50,831 bases of DNA, taken from positions 1 through 50,831 of the forward strand of contig JAIRWM010000118.1 of NCBI GenBank assembly GCA_031268975.1. The letters run 5' to 3'. Numbering within the stretch: the stretch's first letter is position 1; each line of letters begins with the position of its first letter. The stretch is from Treponema sp. (GTDB lineage Bacteria > Spirochaetota > Spirochaetia > Treponematales > Breznakiellaceae). Made by a program: the position numbers and the translations under genes. The notes under the pieces are model-generated. The model did not search any database, was not told the DNA's origin, and saw only the letters and a program-made list of their open reading frames with translations. This document shows positions 15,148 through 28,886 of the stretch, piece after piece.

Positions 15148-15432
15148 CTAAATCCTGACTTTGGGATTAACCGCGGTGAAATCCGATTCGACAAGGGCCC
15201 TGAGATCGGCGACAGCCTCTTCCTCGTCCGGGCCGTCCGCCTTAATGACAACTTCATCGTTTTCGCAGACATTTAACAGGATAACTTTGAGTATGGCTTT
15301 GGCGTTGGCGCTTTTTTCTCCCTTGCGGATTTCAACGGAAGACTGGTACAATTTCGCCGTTCTTACAAACACGTCCGCTGGCCGTGAATGCAGCCCTGTT
15401 TCGTTTTTTACGACAACGGTGGTTTCTTTCAT
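15148..15432 (-). CDS. HPr-family phosphocarrier protein
   Basis: A 94-residue HPr, carrying phosphate from enzyme I to sugar-specific IIA proteins. The active His15 sits in G-L-H-S-R-P-A. The second conserved site reads N-A-K-A-I-L (residues 43-48), so the Ser46 that HPr kinase phosphorylates in many HPr proteins is Ala here. The end of the protein is slightly longer than usual. It has its own promoter (15485-15458) and faces away from the IIB-like gene. Enzyme I and a complete galactitol-type PTS lie just beyond, so this HPr probably serves that relay. Confidence 0.92.
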   Translation of the reverse strand: MKETTVVVKNETGLHSRPADVFVRTAKLYQSSVEIRKGEKSANAKAILKVILLNVCENDEVVIKADGPDEEEAVADLRALVESDFTAVNPKVRI

Positions 15433-15485: not shown

Positions 15486-15513
15486 ACGTATCATGCGGAC
15501 AAGTGTAAAGCCA

Positions 15514-15542
15514 TTGCCATATCCTGTCAATATGATTATACT
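15514..15542 (+). promoter_or_regulatory. Promoter of the cysteine-less IIB gene
   Basis: TTGCCA (15514-15519), 17-nt spacer, TATACT (15537-15542). The ATG follows only nine bases after the -10 box and no Shine-Dalgarno can be seen, predicting a leaderless or nearly leaderless mRNA. Confidence 0.65.
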
Positions 15543-15551
15543 TACCACCGT

Positions 15552-15833
15552 ATGAAGAAAATTTTACTTGCAGCCGGAACCGGCATTTATGTAAAGGTGC
15601 TGGATAAACTCGAAACCGGGTTAAAAAAAAGAGGGCTTGAAAAACAGTATTCCGTTACCAAATGCAGGGTTCCGGAATTAAAAAAACAGGCTTCCGGGTT
15701 CGACCTCGTTATCCGCACGGCCCTGCTTACGGAAACGGTGGACAAACCGGTTATCAACGGCATAGCCCTGGCGACAGGCGGCCAGGCCGCGGAAACCGTC
15801 CTCGATGAAATCGCCGCCGCCATAAAAGCTTAG
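15552..15833 (+). CDS. Galactitol-type PTS IIB-like protein lacking the catalytic cysteine
   Basis: A 93-residue protein that aligns along its length with the IIB at 18055-18342. Both begin M-K-[KR]-I-L-L-A, share K-K-R-G-L near residue 30, [KQ]-C-[RK] near residue 40 and the F-D-[LI] core strand. IIB proteins carry phosphate on the Cys of A-C-G-T at position 8. Here that residue is Ala (A-A-G-T), and the following A-T-S-T loop is replaced by I-Y-V-K-V. It therefore cannot work by the normal cysteine phosphate route. A regulatory or decoy role is inference. Convergent with, and overlapping by four bases, the next gene. Confidence 0.8.
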   Translation: MKKILLAAGTGIYVKVLDKLETGLKKRGLEKQYSVTKCRVPELKKQASGFDLVIRTALLTETVDKPVINGIALATGGQAAETVLDEIAAAIKA

Positions 15834-16375
15834 TCCGTTTTTTCATCCGCGGTTTTTTCCGGGTTGGGTTCGCCCGGATCTGTTCCGGCTTCGCGGGGCC
15901 GCGACAGTCCCAGTTTGGCCCTTCCCCTGAACCGGAGCGAATCGGGATGTATTTTCCGTTCCAGATAATCAAATTCCGCAAGCAGATCTTTTTTGTCGTT
16001 AAAAAGCGAATAAACGACCCAAAACGATCCCTGCCGCTTTTCGGAATCGGCCAGCCGTACCAGTACCTGGTAATCCGGCGTTACTACCTTTACCCGGAAT
16101 TTTGTGAGCAGGGCTATCTCAAAGCGTTTTTCGCCAAAAGAAGAAAAAACAATTTCGGTATCATTGACCGTAATAAGCCGGGGATTGGCCTTGCGAAAAA
16201 ATGAATTCGCCAGCGCGTAAACGCAGACCGCCGCGGCGGCCGCCCAAAGGGGAGCGTAAGCGGGCGCGAAAATAAGCCGGTAAACGGCGTAACAGAGAAT
16301 TCCAATCAGGATATAATTGACTAAAACAATTTTGTTTCTGTACGCGGTCTTTTCAAATTCATACTTTCGTTCCAC
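15830..16375 (-). CDS. Small membrane protein with two transmembrane helices, unknown function
   Basis: A 181-residue protein with a GTG start and a GAGG site about eight bases upstream. Two hydrophobic helices lie at about residues 17-36 and 39-57. They are followed by a beta-rich soluble part resembling the PH-like domains of YcxB/PH_2-type membrane proteins (R-L-I-T-V-N-D-T-E-I-V-F), and a Pro/Glu-rich tail. I cannot assign a family with confidence. It follows the PTS IIC gene but a strong terminator separates them. Confidence 0.65.
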   Translation of the reverse strand: MERKYEFEKTAYRNKIVLVNYILIGILCYAVYRLIFAPAYAPLWAAAAAVCVYALANSFFRKANPRLITVNDTEIVFSSFGEKRFEIALLTKFRVKVVTPDYQVLVRLADSEKRQGSFWVVYSLFNDKKDLLAEFDYLERKIHPDSLRFRGRAKLGLSRPREAGTDPGEPNPEKTADEKTD

Positions 16376-16438: not shown

Positions 16439-17896
16439 TTACGATTCGGCCCTGGCTTCTTTCCTGATAAGCGCGCGGTTCCACACCGCGAGTCCCACGG
16501 AAATGACAAGCAGTATGATTATGCCGAGCCATTTAAATTTGACAATGTTGATCATCGCCCAGGTAAGCGGATTGGAACCGTCGCAGATACTGGAGAAATT
16601 GCCGGCAAACACACCGGGAGCGTAGGTCGCCGGCTCCGCCCTCGCGGCGGTCGTCATTAAAAGTTCCACAAGGCTGCTTCCGCAGTAGAACATGACGATC
16701 ATTACAACGGCGCCGATGATCAGAGAGCGGAAAAAGTCGCCTTTTGTGATCGGGATAATAAGCACAAAAATATACGGGATAACCGCGAGATCGGCAAAAG
16801 GCAGCATGCGGTTACCGGGAAGGATCACCGCGAGGAAAATCGAGACGGGTACCAGAATCAACGCGCAGGTAAGGCAGATCGGATGCCCGATGCCTATGGC
16901 GGAGTCAAGCCCGATATACAGCGTCCCTTTCCCCTTAAAGTGCTTTTCGATAAAGCTCTGCGCCGCCTCTGAAACGGGAATGAGCCCTTCCATGAGCAGA
17001 GCGGCCATTTTTGGGATAAGCACCAGCGCCGCGCCCATTTGAACGGCCATCTGCACAACGGACATTCCTATCGCTATGTCGCCCCTCGGGCCGTGCAGTA
17101 CAAAACCTCCGTCGGGTATCGACCAGAACGGAATGCCCGCGATCCCTCCTATGATAAGGCCGAAAACGACGCCGATAAGCACCGGTTCCCCGAATACGCC
17201 AAGCCGTTTTTGAATCACATCCATGTCCACTTTGATTTTGTTGATTCCGGGGATTTTGTCCAAAACCAGGTTGACAACCGCCGCTATGGGCACAAAGGCC
17301 GCCGTAAAACCATGCGGTATGGAAATGCCGGGAAGCTCATTGTACTTGCCGAGCCCCGCGGCGGTCCGGTCGGCGATAACCATAACGATTACCATGTTGA
17401 GCGCGGCGGCCGCCAAACCCATCGCGTAGGCGGAGCCCCCGCTTATTCCCGCCAGTGACGCGAGACTGTTGACCATGGCGCCGGTAAAGGCAAAGTGCCA
17501 ATAGTTCCAGATATCGACGTTGACGGTCTGGGTGGTTCCGGTGATGAGCATGATCGCGTTTACCAGAATGCCGACGGGTATAATCAACTTCCCGATATTG
17601 GAGGCGAACGCGATTGCGGAGGCCGGCACCCAGCCGATATCAATGGCGTCCATTGACAGATTGTATTTGGCGACCATTGCCTGGACGGCGGGCCCCAGCG
17701 AACCGCCGATTATGCCGGTAGCGAGATTTAACCCCACAAAACCGACTCCGACGATAAGACCTGCCCGCAGAGCCCGTCCTACAGGCGCTCCTAAAATAAT
17801 GCCAAGAATGAAGATGATGATTGGCATCATCACTGACGCGCCGGGAGCCGAAATGTAGCCGAAAAGTTTAATAACGATGTCCAAAACATTTTGCAT
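16439..17896 (-). CDS. PTS galactitol-type permease, IIC component
   Basis: A 485-residue integral membrane protein of the GatC family, the sugar channel of a phosphotransferase system. About ten hydrophobic segments are visible. Typical stretches are P-I-I-I-F-I-L-G-I-I-L-G near residue 25, A-G-L-I-V-G-V-G-F-V-G-L-N near 45 and I-S-G-G-S-A-Y-A-M-G near 155. Galactitol is the founding substrate, but relatives carry other polyols and pentoses, so the sugar is not fixed. A Shine-Dalgarno AGGAGG precedes the ATG. It follows IIB on the same strand and ends at a strong terminator. Confidence 0.93.
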   Translation of the reverse strand: MQNVLDIVIKLFGYISAPGASVMMPIIIFILGIILGAPVGRALRAGLIVGVGFVGLNLATGIIGGSLGPAVQAMVAKYNLSMDAIDIGWVPASAIAFASNIGKLIIPVGILVNAIMLITGTTQTVNVDIWNYWHFAFTGAMVNSLASLAGISGGSAYAMGLAAAALNMVIVMVIADRTAAGLGKYNELPGISIPHGFTAAFVPIAAVVNLVLDKIPGINKIKVDMDVIQKRLGVFGEPVLIGVVFGLIIGGIAGIPFWSIPDGGFVLHGPRGDIAIGMSVVQMAVQMGAALVLIPKMAALLMEGLIPVSEAAQSFIEKHFKGKGTLYIGLDSAIGIGHPICLTCALILVPVSIFLAVILPGNRMLPFADLAVIPYIFVLIIPITKGDFFRSLIIGAVVMIVMFYCGSSLVELLMTTAARAEPATYAPGVFAGNFSSICDGSNPLTWAMINIVKFKWLGIIILLVISVGLAVWNRALIRKEARAES

Positions 17897-18054: not shown

Positions 18055-18342
18055 TTATTCCTTCTTGATGAGTTCCGCTATTTCGTCCCAAACCTTCTCC
18101 GCGCCGACCCCCGTTAAAAGGGGAAGTCCGTTTATCGAGGGAATTGTTACCCCCGCCGGCGGCTTCGCGTTGGCGATCAAAATATCGAAGTTTGCCACCT
18201 TTGAAGGTATTTCCGCTATTTTACATTGACTGCATGTGTACTTTCCCGCAAGGCCTCTTTTTTTCATTGCGTCATTGAGGCGGCTGGTAACCACGGTCGA
18301 AGTGGCGACCGCCGTACCGCAGGCAAGCAGGATTCTTTTCAT
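18055..18342 (-). CDS. PTS galactitol-type IIB component
   Basis: A 95-residue cytoplasmic IIB with the intact phosphocysteine loop A-C-G-T-A-V-A-T-S-T (Cys8). It accepts phosphate from IIA and gives it to the incoming sugar in IIC. The start at 18342 has a strong AGGAGG six bases upstream. It lies between enzyme I and IIC in one transcription direction. Upstream (18343-18440) is AT-rich and holds a possible promoter of its own (TTGACT, 17 nt, TACCAT on the minus strand). Confidence 0.92.
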   Translation of the reverse strand: MKRILLACGTAVATSTVVTSRLNDAMKKRGLAGKYTCSQCKIAEIPSKVANFDILIANAKPPAGVTIPSINGLPLLTGVGAEKVWDEIAELIKKE

Positions 18343-18440: not shown

Positions 18441-20159
18441 TCATTGGACAGACGCCAAATATGCCTTGACTTCGTCTTCCGTGGACAGCGAAGCGGCTTT
18501 TTTCGCCGTTTCCCGGCATGCCGCGCGGGACAGGCTTCGTATCCGGGCCACGGTCTGGGGAATAAGCTGGGGAGCGACGCTCAATTCTTCCACCCCCAGA
18601 CCGACAAGAACCGGCAGCGCCAGGGGATTCCCCGCCAGTTCGCCGCAGACACCGGCCCAGATACCGTTTTTTTCCGCGGCGGCGCCCGTCATGCCGACGG
18701 CCCGCAGCAGCGCGGGGCTCAGGGTTTGATAGTACGAGCTTACTTCCCCGTTATCGCGGTCCACGCACAGCATGTACTGGGTCAGATCGTTTGTCCCCAT
18801 GCTGACAAAGGCCGCTTCCCCGCTCAGCTCGTCCGCGAGAAGAACCGCCGCGGGGGTTTCGATCATCACACCCAGCGGCGGATCCGGCCTGTAGGGGACG
18901 GCTCTTCCGGCAAGTTCCGCGGCGGCTTTGGCGGCAAGTTCCTTTGCCCGGCGGAATTCCGTCAGCGAGGAAATCATCGGAAACATAATCCTGATATCAC
19001 CGTGAACGGCGGCCCGGAGCAGGGCGCGGAGCTGGGTCAGAAAAAGATCCTCGTATTTAAGACAAAGCCGTATTCCCCGGAGCCCCAGAAACGGATTTTT
19101 TTCTTTTTGCAGGGCAAGAGCTTTTACTTCCTTGTCGCCGCCTATGTCAAGAGTTCTGATGATCAGCATGCCGCCATTGAGTTTTTTTGCCGCTTCCGCG
19201 TAGACACGGTACTGTTCTTCTTCATCGGGAAGATTTCCCCCTAAAAAGAGAAATTCGGTACGAAAAAGGCCGACGCTTTTCGCGCCGAACTCCACGGCGT
19301 TTACCAAATCGCCAATAGATCCTATGTTTGCCGAGACAACTATTTTTTTGCCGTCGACGGTAACACATTCCAGATCTTTCATCCGGAAAAGCTCTTCCTG
19401 CCGCCTCCGGTATTGATCCGCCGCTTTTTCCAGTTCCGCTTTTTTTTCGCCAGCGGGATTGACATAAACAAGCGCTTTTTCAAAATCCCTGAGATCCAGA
19501 ACAACGTCGTCGTTTTCCTCAACCTGGTTCATTATCCCCGCCGTTCCGACGGCGGCCGGCAGGGAAAGGCTTTTTGCCAGAATCGCCACATGGGAGGTAA
19601 GGCCGCCTTTTTCGGTAACAAAACCCCTGATGTTTTTTTTGTCCATCAACACGGTATCCGACGGAAAAAGTTCTACGGCGGCGACAATGCTTTCAGGCGG
19701 CAGGGACGAAAGGGAATGTTCTTCGATTCCCAGAAGATTCCTCTGTACCCGTTTACAAACGTCGGAAAGGTCCGCAAGGCGCTGGGCATTGTAGGAATCT
19801 TCGTCCATTCCGGAAAAAAGTCCTTCGTATGTTTTATAAACGGCGTCTACGGCGGTTTCGGCACGGCAGGACCCTTGATCGATCCTGTCGTACATTTCCG
19901 CCCTGAAGTCGTCGTCTTCCAGTATGGTCATCTGGGCGCGGAAAATATGCCCGTACTCTTCCCCCAGCGAGGCGGAAGAAGTATTTTTGATTTTTTCAAG
20001 TTCCGCTTTTGACGAAGAGAACGCTTTGTCCAGCCGGTTTTTTTCTTCGGCGGGGGGTTTAAACAGCGCCGGATCGCAGCTTAAATCAGGCAGCCTGAAA
20101 ACACAGGCCCTCCCCGCGACAATGCCCGGAGACGCAGTGAGACCGGCAAGCGTTTTCAT
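18441..20159 (-). CDS. ptsI: PTS enzyme I (phosphoenolpyruvate-protein phosphotransferase)
   Basis: A 572-residue enzyme I that moves phosphate from PEP to HPr. The phosphohistidine lies in G-G-L-T-S-H-V-A-I (His190). PEP-binding motifs include F-R-T-E-F-L-F and I-M-F-P-M-I near residue 375, and G-V-C-G-E-L-A-G-N near residue 510. It starts one base from the end of the IIA gene, so the two are coupled. Placement inside a sugar-specific PTS operon suggests a dedicated or only copy, which the window cannot tell. Confidence 0.96.
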   Translation of the reverse strand: MKTLAGLTASPGIVAGRACVFRLPDLSCDPALFKPPAEEKNRLDKAFSSSKAELEKIKNTSSASLGEEYGHIFRAQMTILEDDDFRAEMYDRIDQGSCRAETAVDAVYKTYEGLFSGMDEDSYNAQRLADLSDVCKRVQRNLLGIEEHSLSSLPPESIVAAVELFPSDTVLMDKKNIRGFVTEKGGLTSHVAILAKSLSLPAAVGTAGIMNQVEENDDVVLDLRDFEKALVYVNPAGEKKAELEKAADQYRRRQEELFRMKDLECVTVDGKKIVVSANIGSIGDLVNAVEFGAKSVGLFRTEFLFLGGNLPDEEEQYRVYAEAAKKLNGGMLIIRTLDIGGDKEVKALALQKEKNPFLGLRGIRLCLKYEDLFLTQLRALLRAAVHGDIRIMFPMISSLTEFRRAKELAAKAAAELAGRAVPYRPDPPLGVMIETPAAVLLADELSGEAAFVSMGTNDLTQYMLCVDRDNGEVSSYYQTLSPALLRAVGMTGAAAEKNGIWAGVCGELAGNPLALPVLVGLGVEELSVAPQLIPQTVARIRSLSRAACRETAKKAASLSTEDEVKAYLASVQ

Positions 20160-20647
20160 CAGGAATTTTTATCCTTCATTTTTTCCCCTACGGACTTGTA
20201 CAGAATATCGTACATCTCTTTCGCGGAAGGAGCCTTTAAAACGGCGTCCAGGGTATCGTTATCCGAATAGGCGTTTATAAGCACATCAAGAAGAAACCCT
20301 ATCTTCTTTTTTTCTTTAAGCGCAAACATGGAAACAAGCTGAACCGGTATTTTTTCGTCAGGATCGCCCATTGAGGAGAATTCTACCGGATGGGCGAGCC
20401 GGGCAAACAACAGTACCGATTCGTTGACATGCTCAGCGTCCGTATGCGGGATGGCGATTTTATGGCCTTCCATGGGAAGGCCCGAGGGATACAGCCGTTC
20501 ACGTTCAAGAATGGCCTCGCAGAAGCTGTCTTTTACATAGCCCCGCGAAAACAGTATGCCGCACATCGCCGACAGGGCTTCTTCCCTGGTTTTTACGTCA
20601 AGCCGTTCAAGAACACAGTTTTCCTTGAGGATTTCCCCTATCTCCAT
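20159..20647 (-). CDS. PTS IIA component (fructose/galactitol-type)
   Basis: A 162-residue IIA of the fructose/mannitol/Ntr fold. The phosphohistidine is His68 in A-I-P-H-T-D, preceded by P-S-G-L-P-M-E-G-H, as in GatA-type proteins. I chose ATG 20647 because AGGAG lies seven bases upstream; the reading frame extends further upstream but through a hairpin leader. First gene of the IIA-EI-IIB-IIC run, it passes phosphate from HPr to IIB. Confidence 0.92.
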   Translation of the reverse strand: MEIGEILKENCVLERLDVKTREEALSAMCGILFSRGYVKDSFCEAILERERLYPSGLPMEGHKIAIPHTDAEHVNESVLLFARLAHPVEFSSMGDPDEKIPVQLVSMFALKEKKKIGFLLDVLINAYSDNDTLDAVLKAPSAKEMYDILYKSVGEKMKDKNS

Positions 20648-26545: not shown

Positions 26546-26582
26546 TCCCAAAATCCTCCTTGGGGAATTTTTACAGGCCGCG

Positions 26583-26646: not shown

Positions 26647-26822
26647 TTGTAAGCCGGTGTCTGCCAATCTTTACATTTGCAATGGAAAATTCCACGCGAA
26701 CATTAAACCGGCCTGTAACCGGGGCGTTGTTATAACTCACCTTACGCAAAAGCCAGAGATTGTGTAATTCGCGGACCGCTTTTCCTCCCCTTCCGTAAAA
26801 TGCCGGTTTTTATTATACTTAC

Positions 26823-28886
26823 ATGATTGACAATATGATAAATCTGTCATTATATCCACGCCGCGCCGCGGGAAAGTTTCCGTTTGTCCAGGCACTGATC
26901 TTGTGCCTGTGCGCTCCGCTTTTTGCCCAAAACGTTCCCTCAGGCGGACACCGGGGAGCGGTGACCGTTATGCTTCCCGCCGGAGAGGGCCGGGTGTACA
27001 GCGCCGGCGCCGACGGGTTTTTGGGACTGTGGGAGCCCGGAGAAGGCGCCCTGGACCGCTTCCAGATAAGCCCCTGGGCCATAAGCCACATGGTGCTCAG
27101 GCCGGACGGCGCAGGGGATGTCCCGGGCGGGGAAGGCTCCGCGCGGATAACGCAGCTTGCCGTCGCGGAAAGCGGCGGATCGGGCAGATACCGGATATCG
27201 GTCTGGGATTACTCGTCAAAAACAAAGCTTTTTTCGCTGCCGCTTGACGACCCGGCGGTATTTCTTTCCTACTCGGCCTCCGGGACGTTTCTTATGGTGG
27301 CCACGTCAGGAGCGGCGGGACTTATGCTGCTGGATCCGGAAAACGGAACCGCTCTTGAAGTCCCGCCGGTGACAGATCGCGTAACCTTTGCCGTCACCGG
27401 CAAATCAGAAAAATCCATGCTCAGTTATTCTCCTTCGGGGGTTCTTTCCTATTGGGATTTCGCTACCGGCGGGGAAATACGCCGCTTTACCGTTTCCCGC
27501 GGCCTTGGTTCCGTACTGCTTTTCGGCTCCCGGCGTTTTTTCGCGGGAATCGGCGCCGACGGGCTTTCGGTATTTGACGCTGTTTCCGGCGGTCTTATCG
27601 CCCGGGACCGGTTGATCACCCGGGGAACGCTCGCCGCCGCCGATCCCGAAAGCACGGAATTTTTCGTGTTTCAGCCGAACCGGGTCACCCGGTATTTTCT
27701 CAACAGCATGGGGAGCATTAATAGCTCCGAGCAGCGCGCCATTCCCCAAACGCCGGGGGGCGTCAACAGCTTTTTACCGTCGGGCGGCCGAATTGTTCTG
27801 GGCGGTTCCCAGGGAAGGTTGTTTGAGCTTGCGCAGGCGGACGGGAAAACCGTCCTGACGCCGTTTCCCTCCGAAAATCAGACGCGCGTTACCCAGGCGG
27901 CGGTATCGGGCCCCTTCATCTCGTTTTTTGGGGATGATAAAACCCTGGGGATCATTCCCGCGGACTACCGGGAGCTTGAAGCCGGAACGGAGCTGGTTCT
28001 TTTATCCAACGCGGATTCCTACACCCGCATAACCCCCGCAGATCCCCCGGATCCGGAAACGGGGCGCTTTATCTTTTGGCAGAACGCCAATACGCGGATA
28101 TTTCCAGCCCTGTGGCGGGCGGAAACCGCCGGCGGGAAGCCGCTGCTTGAACGGAAAAACATTCTTTCCAAACTGCCTCTGCGGTCAAATCTCCGTTCAG
28201 TTTCAATATTCGGGGATACGGCGCTTTTCCTTACCATGCGGGGTGTTTTGGCGGCGGCGTCCATCGCCGGGGATCCCGACGGTTCGCCTGTTTTTAACCA
28301 TCAGGCGCCGGCCGCTTCCGACGCGGCGTTTCTCAACGACAGGGAAATCATCATCGGGCAGGGTGCCGTTTCCGGCCCTTCGTTCATACGGCTTCTTGTC
28401 GAAAACGGGGAAACGGTTCCGATGCAAATATCCGATCAGGCTTGTCTGCTGTTATACCGGGGAAAAACCGCTCTCTACGGGGTTACGACCGGCAGAGAAA
28501 GCCCCTCCCCGGCCAAAGGAGTACGGGTATTCACGCGCATTGTCAGGTTTAGCGGCGCCGGGCCGGAGTTCGTCGCGGATTACGCGGGGGAGGATCAAGA
28601 TGTTTCTCTGACCGAGTCGGCGTTTCCCACGGCAAACCTTGGCGGGGAAACCGTGTCGGCTTACGCCCCGAAGGGGCCGGTGCTGTTTGAGAGGAGTCCG
28701 GGGTTTCCTTCTCAAGTCATGGACGGCGGATCTTCCGTTGTCGTTCTTGACACCGAAGGAAACATTATCTGGTACAATCCCGAGACGGGAAGCATTCGGG
28801 CGCGGTTCAGCCTTTACAAGGACTTCTGGAGTCTGGAAGCGGACGGGATAAAAACAGAAGGGCCCGCCATAAAGGGAAAGCCCTGA
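26823..28886 (+). CDS. Exported beta-propeller-like (WD40-like) protein
   Basis: A large protein (687 residues if ATG 26823 is used). A signal peptide covers about residues 18-36 (hydrophobic, ending P-L-F-A-Q). The mature part holds repeated blades with W-D and G-x-D-G-x-L-x-x-W patterns near residues 40-75 and again around 130 and 210, as in WD40/PQQ-like propellers. No lipobox is seen. The start is uncertain: a TATACT box at 26814-26819 lies only three bases before ATG 26823, so ATG 26835 is as likely. No enzyme motif was recognised; a periplasmic binding or scaffold role is a guess. Confidence 0.75.
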   Translation: MIDNMINLSLYPRRAAGKFPFVQALILCLCAPLFAQNVPSGGHRGAVTVMLPAGEGRVYSAGADGFLGLWEPGEGALDRFQISPWAISHMVLRPDGAGDVPGGEGSARITQLAVAESGGSGRYRISVWDYSSKTKLFSLPLDDPAVFLSYSASGTFLMVATSGAAGLMLLDPENGTALEVPPVTDRVTFAVTGKSEKSMLSYSPSGVLSYWDFATGGEIRRFTVSRGLGSVLLFGSRRFFAGIGADGLSVFDAVSGGLIARDRLITRGTLAAADPESTEFFVFQPNRVTRYFLNSMGSINSSEQRAIPQTPGGVNSFLPSGGRIVLGGSQGRLFELAQADGKTVLTPFPSENQTRVTQAAVSGPFISFFGDDKTLGIIPADYRELEAGTELVLLSNADSYTRITPADPPDPETGRFIFWQNANTRIFPALWRAETAGGKPLLERKNILSKLPLRSNLRSVSIFGDTALFLTMRGVLAAASIAGDPDGSPVFNHQAPAASDAAFLNDREIIIGQGAVSGPSFIRLLVENGETVPMQISDQACLLLYRGKTALYGVTTGRESPSPAKGVRVFTRIVRFSGAGPEFVADYAGEDQDVSLTESAFPTANLGGETVSAYAPKGPVLFERSPGFPSQVMDGGSSVVVLDTEGNIIWYNPETGSIRARFSLYKDFWSLEADGIKTEGPAIKGKP

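Follow-up and report, generated by a model that had tools for sequence, protein, structure and literature searches.

A conserved EIIB-Gat paralogue without its phospho-cysteine, usually encoded beside HPr in Treponema-type genomes: a candidate PTS regulator

A 93-residue EIIB-Gat-type protein that has lost the phospho-cysteine, here called IIB', is encoded next to HPr in a contig from a Treponema sp., and its gene is under strong purifying selection and is not decaying. We use "the window" for the whole stretch of DNA that was analyzed (50,831 nucleotides). Our preferred reading, to which we would give a probability of roughly 45%, is by analogy with the Crh protein of Bacillus: IIB' may be a phosphorylation-dead EIIB-Gat paralogue that was kept as a regulator reading IIA (or HPr).

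Gene organization and family membership

The features of the window that bear on IIB' are listed here.

15148 to 15432, minus strand: HPr, with the GLHSRPA motif and His15 present, and with Ala at position 46
15502 to 15530, minus strand: predicted HPr promoter, TTGACA-N17-TACACT, interleaved with the IIB' promoter
15514 to 15542, plus strand: predicted IIB' promoter, TTGCCA-N17-TATACT, the -10 box ending 9 nt before the ATG in a leaderless layout
15552 to 15833, plus strand: coding sequence of IIB', a 93-aa EIIB-Gat-type protein without the phospho-cysteine
15830 to 16375, minus strand: 181-aa protein, a predicted membrane hairpin and PH-like barrel, converging on IIB' with a 4-base overlap
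16439 to 17896, minus strand: IIC, an EIIC-Gat permease
18055 to 18342, minus strand: working IIB, an EIIB-Gat protein with Cys8 (CGTAVATST)
18441 to 20159, minus strand: Enzyme I (EI), named from sequence and context, with orthologues matched
20159 to 20647, minus strand: IIA of the EIIA-2 type, its start set after a 32-residue non-conserved extension

The minus strand thus carries IIA, EI, IIB, IIC and the 181-aa membrane protein in that order, followed by IIB' on the plus strand and by HPr, again on the minus strand. The IIB' frame opens at the ATG at 15552 and runs through 93 codons and a stop to 15833, with no internal stops. A preliminary description of this DNA had placed the gene at 15514 to 15833; the end is correct, but 15514 is where the -35 box, TTGCCA, begins. 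The same description had IIB' aligning end to end with the working IIB, and this is borne out by 43% identity across residues 1-92, nearly the whole length, which identifies the working IIB as a paralogue of IIB'.

With the Pfam profile PF02302 (cut-off 23.6 bits), IIB' scores 17.0 bits and the working IIB 30.7; both miss the PRK10310 cut-off of 95, with 15.2 and 41.3, respectively. The best sequence matches of IIB' are EIIB proteins, and a profile based on IIB' picks up canonical IIBs with scores of up to 70 bits. The predicted structure (mean pLDDT 88) has the EIIB fold, and at E values of 0.001 or less it matches only two PDB structures, the EIIB 3czc (top match, E 6.6e-5) and the galactitol EIIB 5gqs (E 1.8e-4, TM 0.78). 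Homology and predicted fold together place IIB' in the EIIB superfamily by descent. Membership in another family with an active site of its own, which the preliminary description had named as an outcome that would count against it, was rejected, the remaining Pfam matches being single and weak. Also discarded were 7op4 and 7onc (SAKe6BE), which head the PDB profile search but are repeat proteins matched only in several tiny pieces.

Loss of the phosphate chemistry

IIB' resembles EIIB-Gat/GatB (PF02302, PRK10310; PDB 1tvm, 5gqs) in length, in predicted fold and in the motif C38-[KR]-V/I-x-E, but it differs in having no phospho-cysteine, a P-loop region that is two residues shorter and no T-S-T, and in falling under both curated cut-offs. 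In the window, Cys8 of the working IIB is replaced by Ala, and the loop CGTAVATSTV has become AGTGIYVK, two residues fewer, which agrees with the change at Cys8 and in the phosphate loop that had been described before.

These changes are not peculiar to the window. We aligned nine IIB' sequences with ten canonical IIBs of group 1, an alignment in which the exact placement of gaps depends on the aligner. The phosphate-loop cysteine expected of a working EIIB-Gat phosphocarrier is Ala or Gly in all nine IIB' proteins. The CGxxxATST loop is equally lost, all nine having neither T-S-T nor two of the residues in the A-T-S-T-V stretch that follows the loop. All nine also carry one additional residue near G76-G77, at an aligner-dependent place. 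Nine alignment positions are fixed to different residues in IIB' and in group-1 IIB, and sixteen residues are invariant and identical across both groups, among them R27-G28-L29, C38, E42, D51, N69-G70 and E81.

The invariance of Cys38 raises the question of whether IIB' carries phosphate on another residue. Cys38 is present in 9/9 IIB' proteins, as such a role would predict. However, it is just as invariant in the ten canonical group-1 IIBs and so looks inherited, and the phosphate-loop region is shortened with the loss of T-S-T; we consider phosphate transfer through another residue quite unlikely. The P-loop of canonical EIIB proteins contacts their partners, and with this loop remodelled, partner recognition by IIB' may have changed completely.

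Distribution, selection and phylogeny

A three-row profile run against 195 genomes from this family returned 33 places in 21 genomes. Nine of these places, in nine Treponema-type MAGs with seven genus codes (G000, G001, G012, G126, G134, G147, G200, G203 and G211), are IIB' orthologues. Their frames are all open and 93 to 97 aa long, and each has Ala or Gly in place of the cysteine; at the 24 other IIB-like places the cysteine is always present. The isolate codes of the IIB' genomes probably point to termite guts. Scanning GTDB contigs yielded 273 pattern matches and six relatives, all six already among the nine. In a phylum-wide sample of 392 genomes, seven had a match; the genome of the window was the only one with IIB', and the cysteine is present at all six of the remaining readable places. 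One place in that sample (G338), a short stretch with two stops, was counted as a chance match. No IIB' was found in the viral contigs searched, and a plasmid search gave 23 records with a best identity of 39%, of which three were read, all with the cysteine. The absence of IIB' from G201, G138 and G002 is unproven, these assemblies being 77%, 68% and 62% complete, respectively. G133 was rejected as a true absence: its contig stops just past an ORF of the HAD hydrolase type, and a similar ORF abuts IIB' in G134.

Pairwise dN/dS for IIB' ranges from 0.040 to 0.178 among pairs with unsaturated synonymous change. In the codon model, the log-likelihood is -1778.4 with omega free and -1780.4, -1783.6 and -1947.6 with omega fixed at 0.1, 0.05 and 1, the fixed runs also holding kappa at 2. 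The overall value is about 0.05-0.1; selection on HPr is similar, and on IIB it is tighter (about 0.05). At 0.2-0.6 changes per site, neutral simulations limited to point changes left the frame open in 4 to 18% of runs. The window's IIB' falls below the Pfam cut-off, which might suggest decay or a frame that is open by chance, but the nine open frames, the low omega and the conserved promoters described below leave this barely credible, and the pseudogene reading is rejected by dN/dS and the codon model. The earlier judgement that the gene is intact and not obviously decaying therefore stands, and the two checks proposed with it, a search of relatives and a test for purifying selection, both came out in its favor, with no broken copy among the orthologues. 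IIB' combines a lost phospho-residue with continuing purifying selection, the pairing expected of a Crh-like phosphorylation-dead PTS regulator.

In the tree, the nine IIB' proteins form a single clade (support 100/99) beside group-1 IIB, with a stem of 1.02 changes per column and tips of 0.013-0.44; the joint clade of IIB' and group-1 IIB has weak support (40/0). Within the IIB' clade, G001 pairs with G147 and not with G000, which belongs to the same genus as G001. Compared over identical genome pairs, the proportion of synonymous differences (pS) is lower in IIB' than in IIB (G000-G126, 0.57 vs 0.83; G000-G200, 0.48 vs 0.74). Transfer or recombination is a possible source of both the pairing and the lower synonymous divergence.

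Relationship to the transporter genes

In most genomes, IIB' is found beside HPr and/or the IIC-IIB genes, and in the window and in G012, G126, G200 and G211 it adjoins the 181-aa gene, IIC and IIB. This setting would suit a decoy of the transporter, in which IIB' fills the IIB site of the operon's IIC, or competes with IIB by titrating IIA~P, and so throttles uptake of the operon's own sugar. The residues common to IIB' and the working IIB (R27-G28-L29, C38, E42 and N69-G70) would also fit such a role. We nevertheless regard it as improbable, since IIB' persists in G001 and G147, whose assemblies, each 82% complete, yielded no matching copy of IIB, IIC or the 181-aa gene. A single G001 contig carries the whole IIA-EI-PGP-Rpe-SorC block; at the place of IIB-IIC in the window, its EI is followed by an unrelated ORF that by eye resembles cysteine synthase. 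Across the whole G001 assembly, EI (78%), IIA (78%) and HPr (79%) have clear matches, the only IIB match is IIB' itself, the best IIC match is only 34%, and the 181-aa gene was not found. Other PTS transporters are present in this genome, which carries three other EIIC-Gat genes. In G147, IIB' is kept and HPr is cut by the contig end; besides IIB, IIC and the 181-aa gene, matching EI and IIA were not found in the assembly. This may reflect assembly incompleteness, or EI and IIA may not be required partners.

At this level of completeness, neither absence carries much weight by itself. G001 makes the better case, since the sequence at either end of the missing block is visible, and as this genome keeps IIB', HPr, EI and IIA without a detectable IIB, IIC or 181-aa gene, IIC is unlikely to be an obligatory partner. 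The suggestion that IIB' acts as a regulator or decoy of the PTS thus retains its basis in a conserved, selected, cysteine-less gene and loses IIC as a necessary partner. A regulator that reads IIA or HPr is favored over a transporter decoy by this gene content.

The 181-aa protein was present in 9 of the 13 genomes searched, mostly beside an IIC of the window type. Its structure is predicted with a pLDDT of 74, and its PDB matches to PH domains are weak. The G133 copy forms an in-frame fusion with a HAD-type hydrolase that resembles the ORF beside IIB' in G134. RseP and HPr are separated by a conserved CpXC-type gene (PF14353; 14453-15070) in the window, G012, G134, G138, G211 and G004.

A putative regulator and its known counterparts

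Crh of Bacillus is an HPr paralogue that lacks the active-site histidine, is conserved and has a regulatory role. IIB' is similar in being a phosphocarrier paralogue that is conserved despite the loss of its phosphorylation residue; it differs in being an EIIB rather than an HPr, in having no known kinase site, and in that its regulatory role is putative. On this model, an EIIB-Gat gene would have been duplicated and its phosphate chemistry lost once, before the orthologue lineages split, after which the protein was kept for a different job. It would still bind a PTS partner, most likely IIA and possibly HPr. Binding would depend on the phosphorylation state of the partner, and IIB' could thereby either restrain phosphate flow or pass the state of the PTS to another target.

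Against the Crh-like reading, IIB' lies on a different contig from HPr in G200 and G203, and in G203 it is beside neither HPr nor IIC nor IIB. The partner of IIB' may lie outside the PTS. One such alternative is that IIB' regulates a target outside the relay, such as a transcription factor, an enzyme or a membrane protein, with the EIIB scaffold serving as a plain binding domain. The free-standing gene in G203 and the persistence of IIB' without detected IIB and IIC in G001 and G147 would fit this, and there is precedent in MtlR and other PRD regulators, which use an EIIB-Gat-like domain in regulation (PMC8560693). As described there, however, the MtlR domain is part of a DNA-binding protein and keeps Cys419 (PMC8560693), in contrast to the free-standing, cysteine-less IIB'. 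The usual neighbors of IIB' are also PTS genes (HPr in 7/9 genomes) and no regulator is tied to it, so we hold a target outside the relay to be doubtful.

Phosphorylation-dead paralogues are a known kind in principle, and our literature searches turned up no description of this EIIB family. Nor did a cysteine-less stand-alone EIIB appear in them, but subscription journals were thinly covered, so that the evidence of novelty is weak. Paralogues such as Crh are a model for the change from carrier to regulator. A conserved EIIB counterpart would carry this change into the sugar-specific arm of the PTS, and would offer a clean spirochaete case of one duplication, one loss and long conservation.

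Interleaved promoters of IIB' and HPr

The preliminary description had credited IIB' with a good promoter of its own, and the site indeed scores 10 of 12; equally good sites occur at about 1.7e-4 per strand position (17 in the window, both strands). It had passed over the overlap of this promoter with that of HPr: the two -35 boxes are 5 bases apart, each within the spacer of the other. IIB' is divergent from HPr in 7/9 genomes, with an intergenic distance of 54 to 119 bases, and six of the seven HPr-linked orthologues have a 9 to 10 of 12 promoter at the equivalent place. The seventh, in G211, has TTGTTT-N17-TAAACT (7 of 12, by eye). Eight HPr loci lack an adjacent IIB', and there the equivalent place has no site of 9 or more, the best being 7.5 (G138). 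In G138, the place held by IIB' elsewhere is occupied by a canonical IIB, immediately upstream of HPr and in the same orientation (L077 806-1446), and a possible relic of an away-facing promoter remains (TTGTTT-N16-TATACT).

The start of IIB' had also been described as set for leaderless translation, and the 9-nt spacing from the -10 box to the ATG in the window fits this, given the predicted transcription start. The spacing is 7 to 10 nt in G000, G001, G012 and G147 and 7 nt in the weak G211 case; G126 and G134 have leaders of about 55-62 nt, with a purine-rich stretch ahead of the ATG. The HPr -10 box is likewise 6-7 nt from its own ATG in 11 of the 15 loci examined (69 nt in the window). 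With short spacings on the HPr side and leaders in G126 and G134, the leaderless layout is a habit of the locus, neither specific to IIB' nor universal.

The interleaved promoters should have room for only one polymerase, so that strong transcription of HPr would lower that of IIB', and vice versa. In E. coli, bidirectional promoters are opposed pairs on the same DNA that can be used by one polymerase at a time, and they are reported to show no competition at basal levels and compete only under strong activation of one side (PMC12825309). The HPr/IIB' pair differs from the E. coli promoters as presented there in its interleaved -35 boxes, and is known from sequence alone.

An extension of the regulator reading, which we regard as unlikely in its full form, is that IIB' is the output arm of a transport-independent PTS, in which HPr, EI and IIA would feed a phosphate-blind EIIB that reads the state of IIA by binding, and the interleaved, often leaderless promoters would set the HPr:IIB' ratio.

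Classical Gram-positive HPr has a serine at position 46. Of ten aligned HPr sequences, eight have Thr at this position, and those of the window and G211 have Ala. A second overlapping divergent promoter-like pair is found in the window at 26812-26856, between an ORF starting at 26823 on the plus strand and one starting at 26551 on the minus strand.
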